From Natronoflexus pectinivorans (GTDB taxonomy: Bacteria > Bacteroidota > Bacteroidia > Bacteroidales > Marinilabiliaceae): a DNA stretch of 64,000 bases. Numbering within the stretch: the first letter of the stretch is position 1; each line of letters begins with the position of its first letter. The DNA lies in the NCBI RefSeq assembly GCF_004345615.1, contig NZ_SLWK01000005.1, positions 62,001 through 126,000 of the forward strand, written 5' to 3'. Made by a program: the position numbers and the translations under genes. The notes below the pieces were generated by a model. It ran no database searches, was not told the origin of the DNA, and worked only from the letters and a program-made list of their open reading frames with translations. This document shows, piece after piece, positions 1-47,736 of this stretch.

Positions 1-106
1 GGTAGATCAAAAATAGCACGGTGACCACTCCGGCTGCAAACAACAGAAAGTTTTTTCGTCGATGAATAAAATCCCAAAGGGATTTTTCTATTTGACCCAA
101 ATTCAT
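1..106 (-). CDS. Partial membrane protein, N-terminus only
   Basis: Only the first 35 codons lie in the window; the gene runs off the left edge. The start is an ATG at 106-104. About 22 mostly polar residues (start MNLGQIEK, then a basic HRRK stretch) are followed by a hydrophobic run beginning LLFAAGVVTVLFLIY, so the protein enters the membrane early with a cytoplasmic N-terminus (inference from the positive-inside rule). The family cannot be recognised from this fragment. It lies downstream of, and on the same strand as, the membrane-anchored regulator at 437-3031, which makes it a candidate target of that regulator, but nothing in the sequence proves this. Confidence 0.5.
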   Translation of the reverse strand, partial: MNLGQIEKSLWDFIHRRKNFLLFAAGVVTVLFLIY

Positions 107-436
107 AATCAAACGTGTTAATCAAATTATTTTACACTGCCAATTACAAATTTATCTTTGTCAGCATGCTTTTTTGTTAAAAAATGCTTACAGTACCCTT
201 ATGGTGATATTAATGAGATATTAATATTAGAAAACTACGCACTGTAACAACCAGATATTCAATCAAAATCACACAGACGTCTTTGTTGTTTAGATTCTAT
301 CTAAATTAAGAAATTGGAATGATTAGCATTATGAATAGATAAACTGTTCCGCTATCAAAAAAGGGATGCTGGTGTTATCTTTTGCATCAAAGTGAGCTCT
401 AACTTATAAATTGATTTGAATTATTTATAGTTGGAC
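107..436. other. Intergenic, AT-rich, presumed promoter region
   Basis: This stretch of 330 bases separates the regulator at 437-3031 from the partial gene at 1-106, both on the minus strand. It is AT-rich, has no convincing ORF or strong terminator hairpin, and should hold the promoter of the partial gene. I see no clear operator repeat in it. Confidence 0.4.
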
Positions 437-3031
437 TTATTTCTCAACAAATGATTCAAATGCAAGAGAAAAAGGTTCCCCCAAGCTTTTCTCATAATTA
501 TCAGAAAACCATTGATAGGTATACTTCGCCTGATTAAAATGACGCTGTTTAATCAGTGCATTAATTTTAAGTTTAAGAGCTTCCTCACTATACGGATCTC
601 CGATAAACACGCGGTCGCAAATCTTAATAATCATATCATGGTTTCCGGTAAGGAATGGCTGTTGAGCACTCTTTAAAAGAGTATCTACTATTTCTGATGC
701 AGTATGACCTTTGAACTCATCCAGCCACTCTTCTTCCATGTCAATTAGCAGAGCGCCCGTTTCCACCGTTGAAAAGAATTCGACAAACCCTTCAGGATTA
801 TCAATCATAGATCGATTGCGCAACATGGCCTGAACTTCAACATAGTCGCAAAACAACTGTTCTCTGTTAATATTTATCATCCAGTTTTCCATCTGGCTGT
901 CAATGCGAATCCCATCAAGAAACGTTAAAACCTGGCGCAACTTACTCATATTAACACCCCTGTTGTTGGTCGCATTCTTTCTGCTTAGGCCATACCATAA
1001 AATTTGGTTGATGTCATCAGAAGAGATTCCTCTTCGTGGCTTTTGACTGTATAGCAGAAGTAACACAAGCAATTGCCTTATCTTTGGTGTGAATTGCAAG
1101 GAGATATCGTTGCCTTCACGGTCTATTACCTGGAACTCACCAAATAAACATATTGAATTTGGTCTGAATTTCTCCGATGTAGGCATATTTATAACCGGAA
1201 CATCCTGCGCTTCTGTTTTTACAGATGATTTTTGACGATTCTTTCGCGTATAGAGTAAAATAATTAGATAAACCACCAGCAAAATTCCTGCAGTAAGGAA
1301 AACGATCAGATTCCAGTTTGTTTTTTTAGATTGATAAAGAGGCACCACATCCTGATAGAGCTTCCATATTTCCTCGTTTCCCAGCGGTCTGTCCCAGATT
1401 GCCAAATCGTCAATATAACCATTCATGTAGTTATACATTTGTATGGCACGGCCAATGTTAACCGTTCCGCGCCCCATAAAAGAGGGGTGCTTTTGAGATA
1501 TTCCATCGGGTCGTCCATTAACAAAAATGGCCTGTTCTCCTGTTCGTTTCGTGTACCTCCAAACAACATGCACCCATTCATTGGGTCTTATTTCGGTGTT
1601 ACCTGTGATGTCATTTGCAAAAAATCCAAAATAGGGTCGCGCATTTCGGAGTTGCAGGTGAAGTCCCTGACGGTAGGTCGCCTCTTCAGTTCCAAGTATT
1701 GTGATATCCCTTCTCTCCTCTTGCAATGGAGATATCCTTAACCATGCACTAACGGTGAAATCATTGTTGTGTAATCCCAAAGTTTCGGCATCGGGTAGTT
1801 CGATAAAGGTATCATCGGTTAAATATGCAACAGAACCTCGTATGGGATCTTCCGCAAAACGAACACCGTGATTTTTACCGTGATTTCTATTTGCCGAGGC
1901 GTCACGTGTGCTGCTCTCAAAAGGGAAATATGCCTTTAAGCGATGATGCAGATCAAGCGGACTGGCTAAAAAGTTTTGAGTTATATCTTCCCGCACATTG
2001 CTCAGATTTACTCTCTCAGGAGTAAAGCTGTAACCGGGCTTAAATGGTTGCAAAAAAACATCCTCACCGGCAAGAAACGGAAAGGAGTAGTGACCGCTGG
2101 TAAGCGCCTGAGTTGAACCTTCCCAACTCACATCGCTTAGTGGATGGAGGTTGTAGGTTATATTTCCACTTATGGTGTTATGTGAATTTAAATTTTCAAT
2201 AACACCCAAAATGACATAATGATACCTGTTTCGAACAATAAAATTAGGCCTTTTGCCGGTTTTCTTCCATAAATTTATTAAATGGGAAATGAGAAAAGGG
2301 TTCTCGTTAATATTCATCATAAGAAAAGGGATCTCAATTCCTGTTGTATCCCGGGGAAGATTGTAGCCGGTGAAAAACATGAATGGATTGCTGGCTCTTC
2401 CCCTAGCAAAACTACCATGAAACTCAGGCTCCAAAACAGTAGAAAAATGGGGCTCAACAGCATAGTCCCATAGATGATAAAATCCGGGGGGCGTATCTTG
2501 ATTTCGTTGCAGAGTAAAACAGACTAACTGGTATCCCCTCTCTGCCATCATTTTGGTTGAAGGCCATAAATCATCTGTTTCGGATACAAATATTTTATTG
2601 TATAAATGGTGTGCTTTTAAAGCTGTTTCGAGATAGAAAAACGGAAAATTGTAATCAAGAAAAAGAGTTAGAACTTCACCGGGGTTCTGATTTAGAAAGA
2701 TGCTTATTTCATCAAGAAAATATGAAAAAGGTTTCTCATTCTTCTGGGGGGTTATCATTCGGATGATTGCCGAATCGGCATCTACTTCAAGACGGATTTG
2801 AAAACCTCTCACATTCGCCTGAAGCAATTCCCTGATGGTCATTGTTTCAGGCTCCAGATGGTTGTTTAAATCAGAATAATTTGATACAAGAAAAAACTGA
2901 TCAACAAAGGCATTTGAGGCAGCACGTCGTCTTTGCGCATCGGAATGATACACAAAGAGGAACAAAAAGAAGATCATGAGCACAAATTGCAATGATGAAT
3001 GCCCAATACTATTGATTTTCCAGTAATTCAT
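437..3031 (-). CDS. Membrane-anchored regulator: PLC-like, LamG, TM, SARP-like DNA-binding domain
   Basis: An 864-residue protein that appears to carry a sensor outside the membrane and a transcription factor inside. A signal or anchor segment covers residues 1-33. Residues 45-270 resemble the TIM-barrel PLC-like phosphodiesterase fold: the segment ending VRGFQIRLEV and the NPGEVLTLFLD segment match conserved strands. The positions where the two catalytic histidines are expected read SNYSDLNN and MITPQKNE, so catalysis looks lost. Residues 367-560 form a LamG/concanavalin-like domain that ends in GYIDDLAIWDRPL. A transmembrane helix (about 571-595) is followed by a basic stop. Residues 622-717 resemble an OmpR-type winged helix of the SARP kind (CLFGEFQVI, then TPKIRQLLVLLLLYSQ), and 720-864 resemble a helical BTAD-type region. 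Ligand and targets are unknown. It may control the partial gene just downstream. Confidence 0.75.
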   Translation of the reverse strand: MNYWKINSIGHSSLQFVLMIFFLFLFVYHSDAQRRRAASNAFVDQFFLVSNYSDLNNHLEPETMTIRELLQANVRGFQIRLEVDADSAIIRMITPQKNEKPFSYFLDEISIFLNQNPGEVLTLFLDYNFPFFYLETALKAHHLYNKIFVSETDDLWPSTKMMAERGYQLVCFTLQRNQDTPPGFYHLWDYAVEPHFSTVLEPEFHGSFARGRASNPFMFFTGYNLPRDTTGIEIPFLMMNINENPFLISHLINLWKKTGKRPNFIVRNRYHYVILGVIENLNSHNTISGNITYNLHPLSDVSWEGSTQALTSGHYSFPFLAGEDVFLQPFKPGYSFTPERVNLSNVREDITQNFLASPLDLHHRLKAYFPFESSTRDASANRNHGKNHGVRFAEDPIRGSVAYLTDDTFIELPDAETLGLHNNDFTVSAWLRISPLQEERRDITILGTEEATYRQGLHLQLRNARPYFGFFANDITGNTEIRPNEWVHVVWRYTKRTGEQAIFVNGRPDGISQKHPSFMGRGTVNIGRAIQMYNYMNGYIDDLAIWDRPLGNEEIWKLYQDVVPLYQSKKTNWNLIVFLTAGILLVVYLIILLYTRKNRQKSSVKTEAQDVPVINMPTSEKFRPNSICLFGEFQVIDREGNDISLQFTPKIRQLLVLLLLYSQKPRRGISSDDINQILWYGLSRKNATNNRGVNMSKLRQVLTFLDGIRIDSQMENWMININREQLFCDYVEVQAMLRNRSMIDNPEGFVEFFSTVETGALLIDMEEEWLDEFKGHTASEIVDTLLKSAQQPFLTGNHDMIIKICDRVFIGDPYSEEALKLKINALIKQRHFNQAKYTYQWFSDNYEKSLGEPFSLAFESFVEK

Positions 3032-47288: not shown

Positions 47289-47291
47289 CAG

Positions 47292-47363
47292 CAGTCCCTA
47301 GGGGAATCGAACCCCTGTTTCCAGAATGAAAATCTGGCGTCCTAACCCCTAGACGAAGGGACC
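47292..47363 (-). tRNA. tRNA-Glu (anticodon TTC)
   Basis: A 72-base cloverleaf read from the minus strand, starting GGTCCCTTCG. Anticodon stem CCAGA/TCTGG encloses loop TTTTCAT with anticodon TTC. The T-arm is GGGGTTCGATTCCCC. CCA is not encoded; the discriminator is G. The sequence is the same as the tRNA at 47665-47736. It is followed by a terminator and lies 11 bases downstream of rpsT. Confidence 0.97.
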
Positions 47364-47629: not shown

Positions 47630-47664
47630 CTTAGTATAAATATAAGTTCTTAATTCCGTTTTAG

Positions 47665-47736
47665 CAGTCCCTAGGGGAATCGAACCCCTGTTTCCAGAAT
47701 GAAAATCTGGCGTCCTAACCCCTAGACGAAGGGACC
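47665..47736 (-). tRNA. tRNA-Glu (anticodon TTC), second copy
   Basis: Identical in sequence over all 72 bases to the tRNA at 47292-47363. It lies 35 bases upstream of rpsT on the same strand. CCA is not encoded. Confidence 0.97.

Follow-up and report, generated by a model that had tools for sequence, protein, structure and literature searches.

A probable membrane-anchored, SARP-type one-component regulator and its predicted repeat-array operator beside a NapC-FGE/MocA operon of Natronoflexus pectinivorans

How could a signal outside the cytoplasm be read by a DNA-binding protein without a kinase, and which genes would such a protein control? The question is raised by a gene for 864 amino acids (437-3031, reverse strand) in a stretch of 64,000 nucleotides of Natronoflexus pectinivorans (contig NZ_SLWK01000005.1, positions 62,001 to 126,000). 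The whole stretch is called here the window, and the protein domains, operator, promoter element and operon described below lie on the same reverse strand of it. A sequence-only reading of this DNA had described the product as a transmembrane one-component regulator. In our study the gene was delimited by an open reading frame (ORF) call and its orthologs, and the analysis makes it probable that the protein is a kinase-less, inner-membrane-anchored, SARP-type one-component activator of the adjacent operon, which encodes a fusion of a NapC-type cytochrome with an FGE domain and Gfo/Idh/MocA oxidoreductases, and that it acts via an array of TTAAY repeats. Genomes and loci are given by our G and L numbers where they have to be told apart.

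In the proposed mechanism, a periplasmic sensor made of a barrel without catalytic histidines, a beta block and a LamG domain would detect a signal, and one membrane helix would relay it to the SARP-type output in the cytoplasm. The output would bind TTAAY repeats standing head-to-tail, 11 bp or one helical turn apart, just upstream of a TAnnTTTG element. Bound to the array and still in the membrane, it would recruit RNA polymerase as SARPs do, and the sensor would set the assembly of the regulator on the array. The target of this activation would be the adjacent operon.

The connection of the regulator with this operon is seen in the gene order of its relatives. In the window the first gene of the operon is represented by its 5' end (1-112), which encodes a NapC/NirT cytochrome fused to an FGE-sulfatase domain; the fusion gene, with a mechanically chosen start codon, encodes 514 amino acids and extends beyond the window. 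The ortholog search covered 61 genomes, namely this one and 60 relatives. Some match to the regulator at 0.001 was found in 24 of them, and near full-length matches of 35-100% identity in 8 of these, the genome of origin counted; close relatives are those of Alkalitalea saponilacus (96%) and Alkaliflexus imshenetskii (66%). Long matches of lower identity are a paralogue in G022 (31%) and three sequences from G009 and G005 (26-28%), and the remaining matches among the 24 genomes cover chiefly the LamG, linker or output part. Within its own genome of 4.47 Mb the regulator is the sole match to itself at 0.001. In the 8 genomes the next same-strand genes encode the NapC/NirT-FGE fusion and one or more Gfo/Idh/MocA oxidoreductases, and several of these operons add a DUF1080, ThuA or xylose-isomerase-like gene. 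Moreover, three hold-out genomes of another family (G295, G560 and G620; regulator 36-37% identical by BLASTP) have the same regulator type with the same operon. The linkage is present for all 11 regulators of at least 35% identity, hold-outs included, in genomes which are not independent, as G000 and G001 belong to one genus and the three hold-outs to another. The partial downstream gene had been named earlier as a candidate target, and this linkage together with the operator-like array just before the operon speaks for that role.

The coupling has its limits, and these count against the proposed reading. The survey of Bacteroidota genomes that had been called for found the downstream genes kept at 35% identity or more, but the distant PLC-containing members L038 (28%), L039 and L040 (24-25%) are not beside the NapC-FGE operon. 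The NapC-FGE pair also occurs without this regulator. The NapC-FGE gene gave 27 rows in 23 of the 61 genomes at 1e-60, and since several of these 23 genomes have the fusion without the regulator, the fusion was rejected as an obligate partner. Other upstream neighbours of NapC-FGE, where inspected, include an MscS channel gene (G010, G034) and a hybrid two-component regulator (G003).

From the N to the C terminus, the domain order of the protein is signal/anchor, PI-PLC-X-like domain, beta-rich block, LamG, membrane helix, winged helix and BTAD-like helices. The reading frame is unbroken in the genome of origin and in independent relatives, hence the two halves are not an assembly join and belong to one gene. 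Hydropathy places the signal/anchor helix at residues 9-27 (2951-3007). The PI-PLC-X-like sensor domain was assigned to about residues 40-282 (2186-2914) by hhalign, hidden Markov model and BLASTP comparisons. It is followed by the beta-rich block (about residues 283-362; 1946-2185), which is conserved in the alignment of relatives, has no Pfam match and is likened by us to carboxypeptidase-regulatory-like domains; its strands appear only in a low-confidence structure model. The LamG domain read earlier from the letters was recovered as Laminin_G_3 at residues 407-555 (1367-1813), with a Pfam E-value of 1.3e-19 and a score of 71.3 bits, passing the cut-off of 27.6. The one membrane helix that had been noticed corresponds to a hydropathy peak of 3.13 at residues 575-593 (1253-1309). 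A single hydrophobic helix before the cytoplasmic part was found in 21 of the 22 members scanned, the adverse case being L037, whose helix peaks at 1.53, below the threshold of 1.6. A membrane region and a DNA-binding domain hence stand in one chain, the DNA-binding domain being recognised by weak homology only. The Pfam scan of the regulator found no kinase or receiver domain, in agreement with the kinase-less arrangement first supposed.

This layout could also be used in another way, in which regulated proteolysis frees the SARP-like part as a soluble factor and the membrane part is a mere latch. The linker between the membrane helix and the winged helix varies in the alignment of relatives, which would suit proteolytic release, and AfsR, a large SARP, is described in an excerpt of PMC10936776 without a membrane domain and with NOD and TPR instead. 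On the other hand, a regulator gene lying next to its target is what one would expect of a tethered factor, short of proof. Release by proteolysis is possible but unlikely, and the regulator would probably remain tethered to the membrane when active.

The cytoplasmic part was assigned piecewise. An OmpR-type winged helix at about residues 625-720 (872-1159) is suggested by profile and single-sequence comparisons, in which SaeR, 3q9v and AfsR chains match weakly but all in this same position, and a BTAD-like helical domain at about residues 730-864 (440-844) by VIA-align structural matches. A 22-row output profile has weak matches to SaeR (0.048) and AfsR (E 1.2) over the winged helix and to TPR consensus proteins over the helical end. 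Among relatives, Trans_reg_C (0.011) and BTAD (0.046) were met in L049 and BTAD (0.037) in L042, weakly and at the expected positions, and 12 long members gave Trans_reg_C at 0.039 in one and BTAD at 0.14 in one. In the VIA-align comparison of the C-terminal helices the top four structures are EmbR and AfsR, with Z of 9.3-9.5. Several findings pull the other way. No winged-helix or BTAD cut-off was passed in the Pfam scan of the regulator, and the next structural row, an unrelated TPR with Z of 8.4, lies little under 9.5. Further, by the tool's own caution a Z below about 13 between helical repeats may mean a mere common arrangement, and the C-terminal model is poor in the DNA-binding half (mean pLDDT, the model's confidence score, 53) and better in the helical half. 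The BTAD Pfam model, run over the 61 genomes, found 5 genomes at 0.001, the regulator's own genome not among them. The case for a SARP-type output is good but not decisive. The winged-helix, SARP-like character first proposed appears to hold at the level of the fold only, where EmbR and AfsR rank highest, and it did not carry over to the Trans_reg_C and BTAD cut-offs.

The DNA that such an output may bind was looked for between the regulator and the operon. These intergenics are otherwise poorly conserved and have in common a TTAAY direct-repeat array. In the window, the predicted operator consists of five 11-bp direct repeats (170-224), which read TTAATATCTCA TTAATATCACC ATAAGGGTACT GTAAGCATTTT TTAACAAAAAA, with the unit starts TTAAT, TTAAT, ATAAG, GTAAG and TTAAC. 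By the TTAAY score, period 11 beats every other period from 7 to 16 in all eight intergenics, from which the scoring unit itself had been derived, and the observed score was reached by 0, 0, 0, 2, 0, 1, 0 and 0 of 300 shuffles, respectively. The best-scoring place on either strand is this intergenic in each of the 8 loci (14.5-20 kb). The hold-outs (loci of 18-19 kb) score 20 just before NapC-FGE, again the top place in each; in G295 two genes part the regulator from the operon, and the array remains with the operon. The exact array pattern has one site in the 4.47-Mb genome, and allowing two mismatches gives five more sites in comparison to seven for the reversed-pattern control. Units 3 and 4 of the window array (ATAAG and GTAAG) are weak, and in a motif-free period score 11 is the sole highest in 5 of 8 intergenics and tied in one, and 0 to 46 of 300 shuffles score as high; both results weaken the case for the array. 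The motif-free score was too weak to be retained as stand-alone evidence. The same intergenic also has a near-palindrome, TTTAGATtctATCTAAA, at 289-305, and a similar TTTAGA..TCTAAA is present in L003.

The array is followed by a promoter-like element. The -7 element of the window, TAAATTTG (147-154), lies 70 bp from the array start and fits TAnnTTTG, which is the Bacteroides -7 consensus according to an extract of PMC4747536. In 8 of the 11 genomes a -7-like element with at most one mismatch follows the array at equal helical phase (4 mod 11), and in four of them it matches the consensus exactly. In 22 family arrays (those scoring at least 13, 9 of them of PLC type), matches to the -7 element, counted from 5 of 6 bases upwards, are found 15 bp (7 matches) and 26 bp (5 matches) after the last repeat, which together make 12 of 19 hits, and any other offset has at most 2. 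None of 1000 shuffles reproduced this pile-up, for which the rule defining the last repeat was derived from these arrays themselves. In the portion of PMC10936776 available, SARP sites are described as direct repeats with a spacing of 11 or 22 bp, of which the final one lies 8 bp from the -10 element. If a repeat is 7 bp long, as assumed from SARPs, and begins 15 bp ahead of the -7 element, the gap is 8 bp. The operator geometry of SARPs, with direct repeats of about 11 bp and the last one about 8 bp from the -10 element, is hence found in these sequences, with the spacing exact in some arrays. As exceptions that tell against a fixed spacing, the in-phase match is absent in G009 and G015 (one base off phase) and in G031 (none).

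A site so close to a promoter could also be covered by a repressor, the signal then lifting repression; the array adjoins the -7 element, and binders of direct repeats can repress or activate. However, the spacing from the last repeat to the -7 element fits the geometry of an activating SARP, and the array of the window (170-224) does not overlap the element (147-154). We consider repression quite unlikely, and activation is the expected effect of the regulator.

The protein and the array are tied to each other only by linkage, which has allowed a further reading, namely that the array serves a different factor or is a feature of the NapC-FGE promoter unrelated to the regulator. The eight linked arrays have period-11 scores of 14 to 22, and 12 upstream regions of NapC-FGE without the regulator, one of them only 3 nt long and two below 90 nt, have 13 or less. 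The value of 13, which favours the unrelated feature and detracts from the proposed pairing, comes from G034, a genome without a detected full-length regulator but with a weak partial array, and is to be set against 14 for the weakest linked array. Against it, the remaining 11 of the 12 regions score at most 9, and TTAAY arrays are carried also by the relatives L045 and L090, which have Kelch sensors. A separate factor or an unrelated promoter feature is hence very unlikely, and binding of the array by the SARP-type output itself is the reading that we prefer.

The sensor was identified with the help of profiles. Single-sequence searches of the regulator against Pfam, NCBIfam and the PDB gave no useful PLC or winged-helix match and LamG alone, and such a scan leaves residues 1-280 without any Pfam match. 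Sensor profiles were built from 9 and 12 rows of the stretch of about residues 1-280. Compared by hhalign with PI-PLC-X-type domains from other Bacteroidota they gave a probability of 93.6-95.9%, whereas the highest value among 11 decoy families was 0.6% and reversed sequences reached 0.1-0.2%. Against 945 ORFs the sensor profile had one match outside its own family, the PI-PLC-X protein L058 (8.8e-6), and at 0.001 it matches 11 of 393 genomes of the order. It finds L189 (also L170, of genome G063) at an E-value of 4.0e-30. L189 is a secreted protein of 423 amino acids with a type IX secretion system (T9SS) tail, which scores 37.4 bits vs the PF00388 cut-off of 23.1, and direct BLASTP of the regulator with it aligns 290 residues at 27% identity (E 2e-18 in a four-sequence comparison). 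The N-terminal AlphaFold model, made with three rows, was unusable (pLDDT 42), and a Foldseek search with it had no match at 0.001. The PLC-like part of the sequence-only reading was in this way recovered by the search against PI-PLC X families, and by these comparisons the sensor is a homolog of the PI-PLC-X domain.

The histidine columns of L189 (THN and YHG) align to N51 (2879-2881) and M92 (2756-2758) of the regulator; we take the two replaced columns to be those of the PI-PLC catalytic histidines. The loss of these motifs had been noticed from the letters, and since both columns are replaced, the label of a dead PLC is, on this alignment, right for this protein. Across ten regulators, the first column has Asn in 8 and His in L036 and L037, and the second has His in none, whereas L189 retains both. 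The alignment is loose around the second column, where a His stands two columns on in L037 and one on in the stand-alone relative L190. A PLC-like domain that is still catalytic or substrate-cleaving, and so an enzymatic sensor, would draw on the first-column His of L036 and L037, on a His near the second column in L037 and L039 and on the loose alignment with L190, but is highly improbable with the second column devoid of His in all ten regulators. The sensor would work by binding a ligand. An inositol or polysaccharide ligand had been proposed; the fold and the distantly dehydrogenase-like neighbours are the only two grounds for that idea.

The output part extends well beyond the regulators with a PLC-like sensor. 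Strong matches to its profile number 28 and are spread over 15 of the 295 genomes searched in the order, and at 1e-6 the profile is matched in 31 of the 395 genomes searched across the phylum. The sensors joined to it differ and include a Kelch propeller (L042, L045, L090), a double LamG (L049) and others. In the 600-nt flanks of 57 members, TTAAY arrays scoring at least 14 had period 11 in 14 members and 12 in 9 (one array counted twice), with a tie of 12 and 14 in 2, period 14 in 1 and a score below 14 in 31. In wider flanks of 42 members the sole best period was 11 in 15 and 12 in 7. The 13 rows from outside the order (11 loci) run counter to a single period, with 12 the sole best in 8 and 11 in 1, and a universal 11-bp rule was rejected on account of these loci. 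We incline to the view that there is a Bacteroidota-wide family of SARP-type activators, mostly membrane-anchored, with interchangeable periplasmic sensors and an operator code of heptamer-like TTAAY repeats (period 11 or 12 bp, the last repeat 15 bp before TAnnTTTG) which shares the geometry of Actinobacterial SARPs. If the operator code is shared, the target of a member would often be readable from the sequence alone. No description of this regulator family was recognised in the open-licence PMC literature, where absence is weak evidence. Direct repeats of the TTAACCC type with a 12-bp period were also seen in the flanks of L181, L183, L180, L182, L179 and L074. Contiguous TAACTGA heptamer repeats, as presented in a section of PMC4679880, were considered and set aside as a feature different from the regulator arrays.

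SARPs are known as soluble regulators of antibiotic genes in Actinobacteria. With AfsR and EmbR the regulator appears to share an OmpR-type winged helix followed by BTAD-type helices, and direct repeats one helical turn apart with the last about 8 bp from the downstream promoter element. In contrast to SARPs, it has a membrane helix, a large periplasmic sensor, a Bacteroidota host and a redox or sugar-type operon as target, and its sequence lies under all Pfam cut-offs. It is not classed as a SARP member because the helix at 575-593 is at odds with a soluble protein and no family cut-off is passed. The regulator would function like a SARP and, judged from its domains, is built like a transmembrane transcription regulator (TTR). 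ToxR and CadC are examples of TTRs, in which sensor, membrane helix and DNA-binding domain are likewise in one chain without a kinase; the SARP-type output with BTAD and the PLC-like/LamG sensor set the regulator apart from them. A large survey of TTRs relied, according to the part of it available, on Pfam DNA-binding models (PMC10269533), and as these do not detect the regulator, regulators of this type may have escaped it.

Among Bacteroidota, SusR and SusR4 (BT2160) are also membrane regulators with a periplasmic sensor and direct-repeat motifs, and the gene for SusR4 adjoins a sugar-oxidoreductase operon (BT2156-2160). The SusR motifs have a long spacer, unlike the regulator array, as stated in a passage of PMC3878776. 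Membership of the SusR group was rejected, as a SusR4-like protein of G095, identified by gene order, had no output-profile hit at E 10; this protein is a DUF6377 protein, and the comparison covers one SusR4-like protein. Hybrid two-component systems differ from the regulator, which is without kinase or receiver. In G003 one of them (L148, 6949-12507) takes the place just upstream of this NapC-FGE/MocA pair, an instance of regulator swapping, and the two regulators may do the same job. PI-PLC-X enzymes have the homologous domain, but the regulator has lost the histidine columns. If the proposed reading is true, membrane-anchored relatives of SARPs would be a kinase-less means of reading extracellular signals in Bacteroidota, beside SusR, and the operator rule would let targets be predicted. 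It would also clearly illustrate how a sensor can arise from an enzyme-type domain (PI-PLC), of which the order still has a relative with the histidines.

The NapC/NirT-FGE fusion next to a Gfo/Idh/MocA gene (window 1-112; L052, 7214-10113) is an unusual redox module. The operon neighbours are distantly similar to sugar and inositol dehydrogenases, all far under the equivalog cut-offs, and the genes of the operon may point to a redox reaction in the periplasm, in which a sugar or cyclitol would be converted with coupling to the quinone pool. Export of the oxidoreductases would follow from their N-termini, which we take to be twin-arginine-like. The operon was rejected as the BT2156-2160 pathway, as its closest MocA protein scores 162 bits vs the BT2158 cut-off of 750, and the BT2158-type gene of this genome sits elsewhere, outside the operon.

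Two minor observations were made aside from these subjects. The contig of L190 (G071:C23, 10454 bases) consists of tandem copies of a segment of about 4.6 kb with a PLC-like gene, and may be the concatemeric assembly of a small circular element. In the window, two tRNA-Glu (TTC) genes are located at 47291-47363 and 47664-47736, on the same strand and 300 bases apart.

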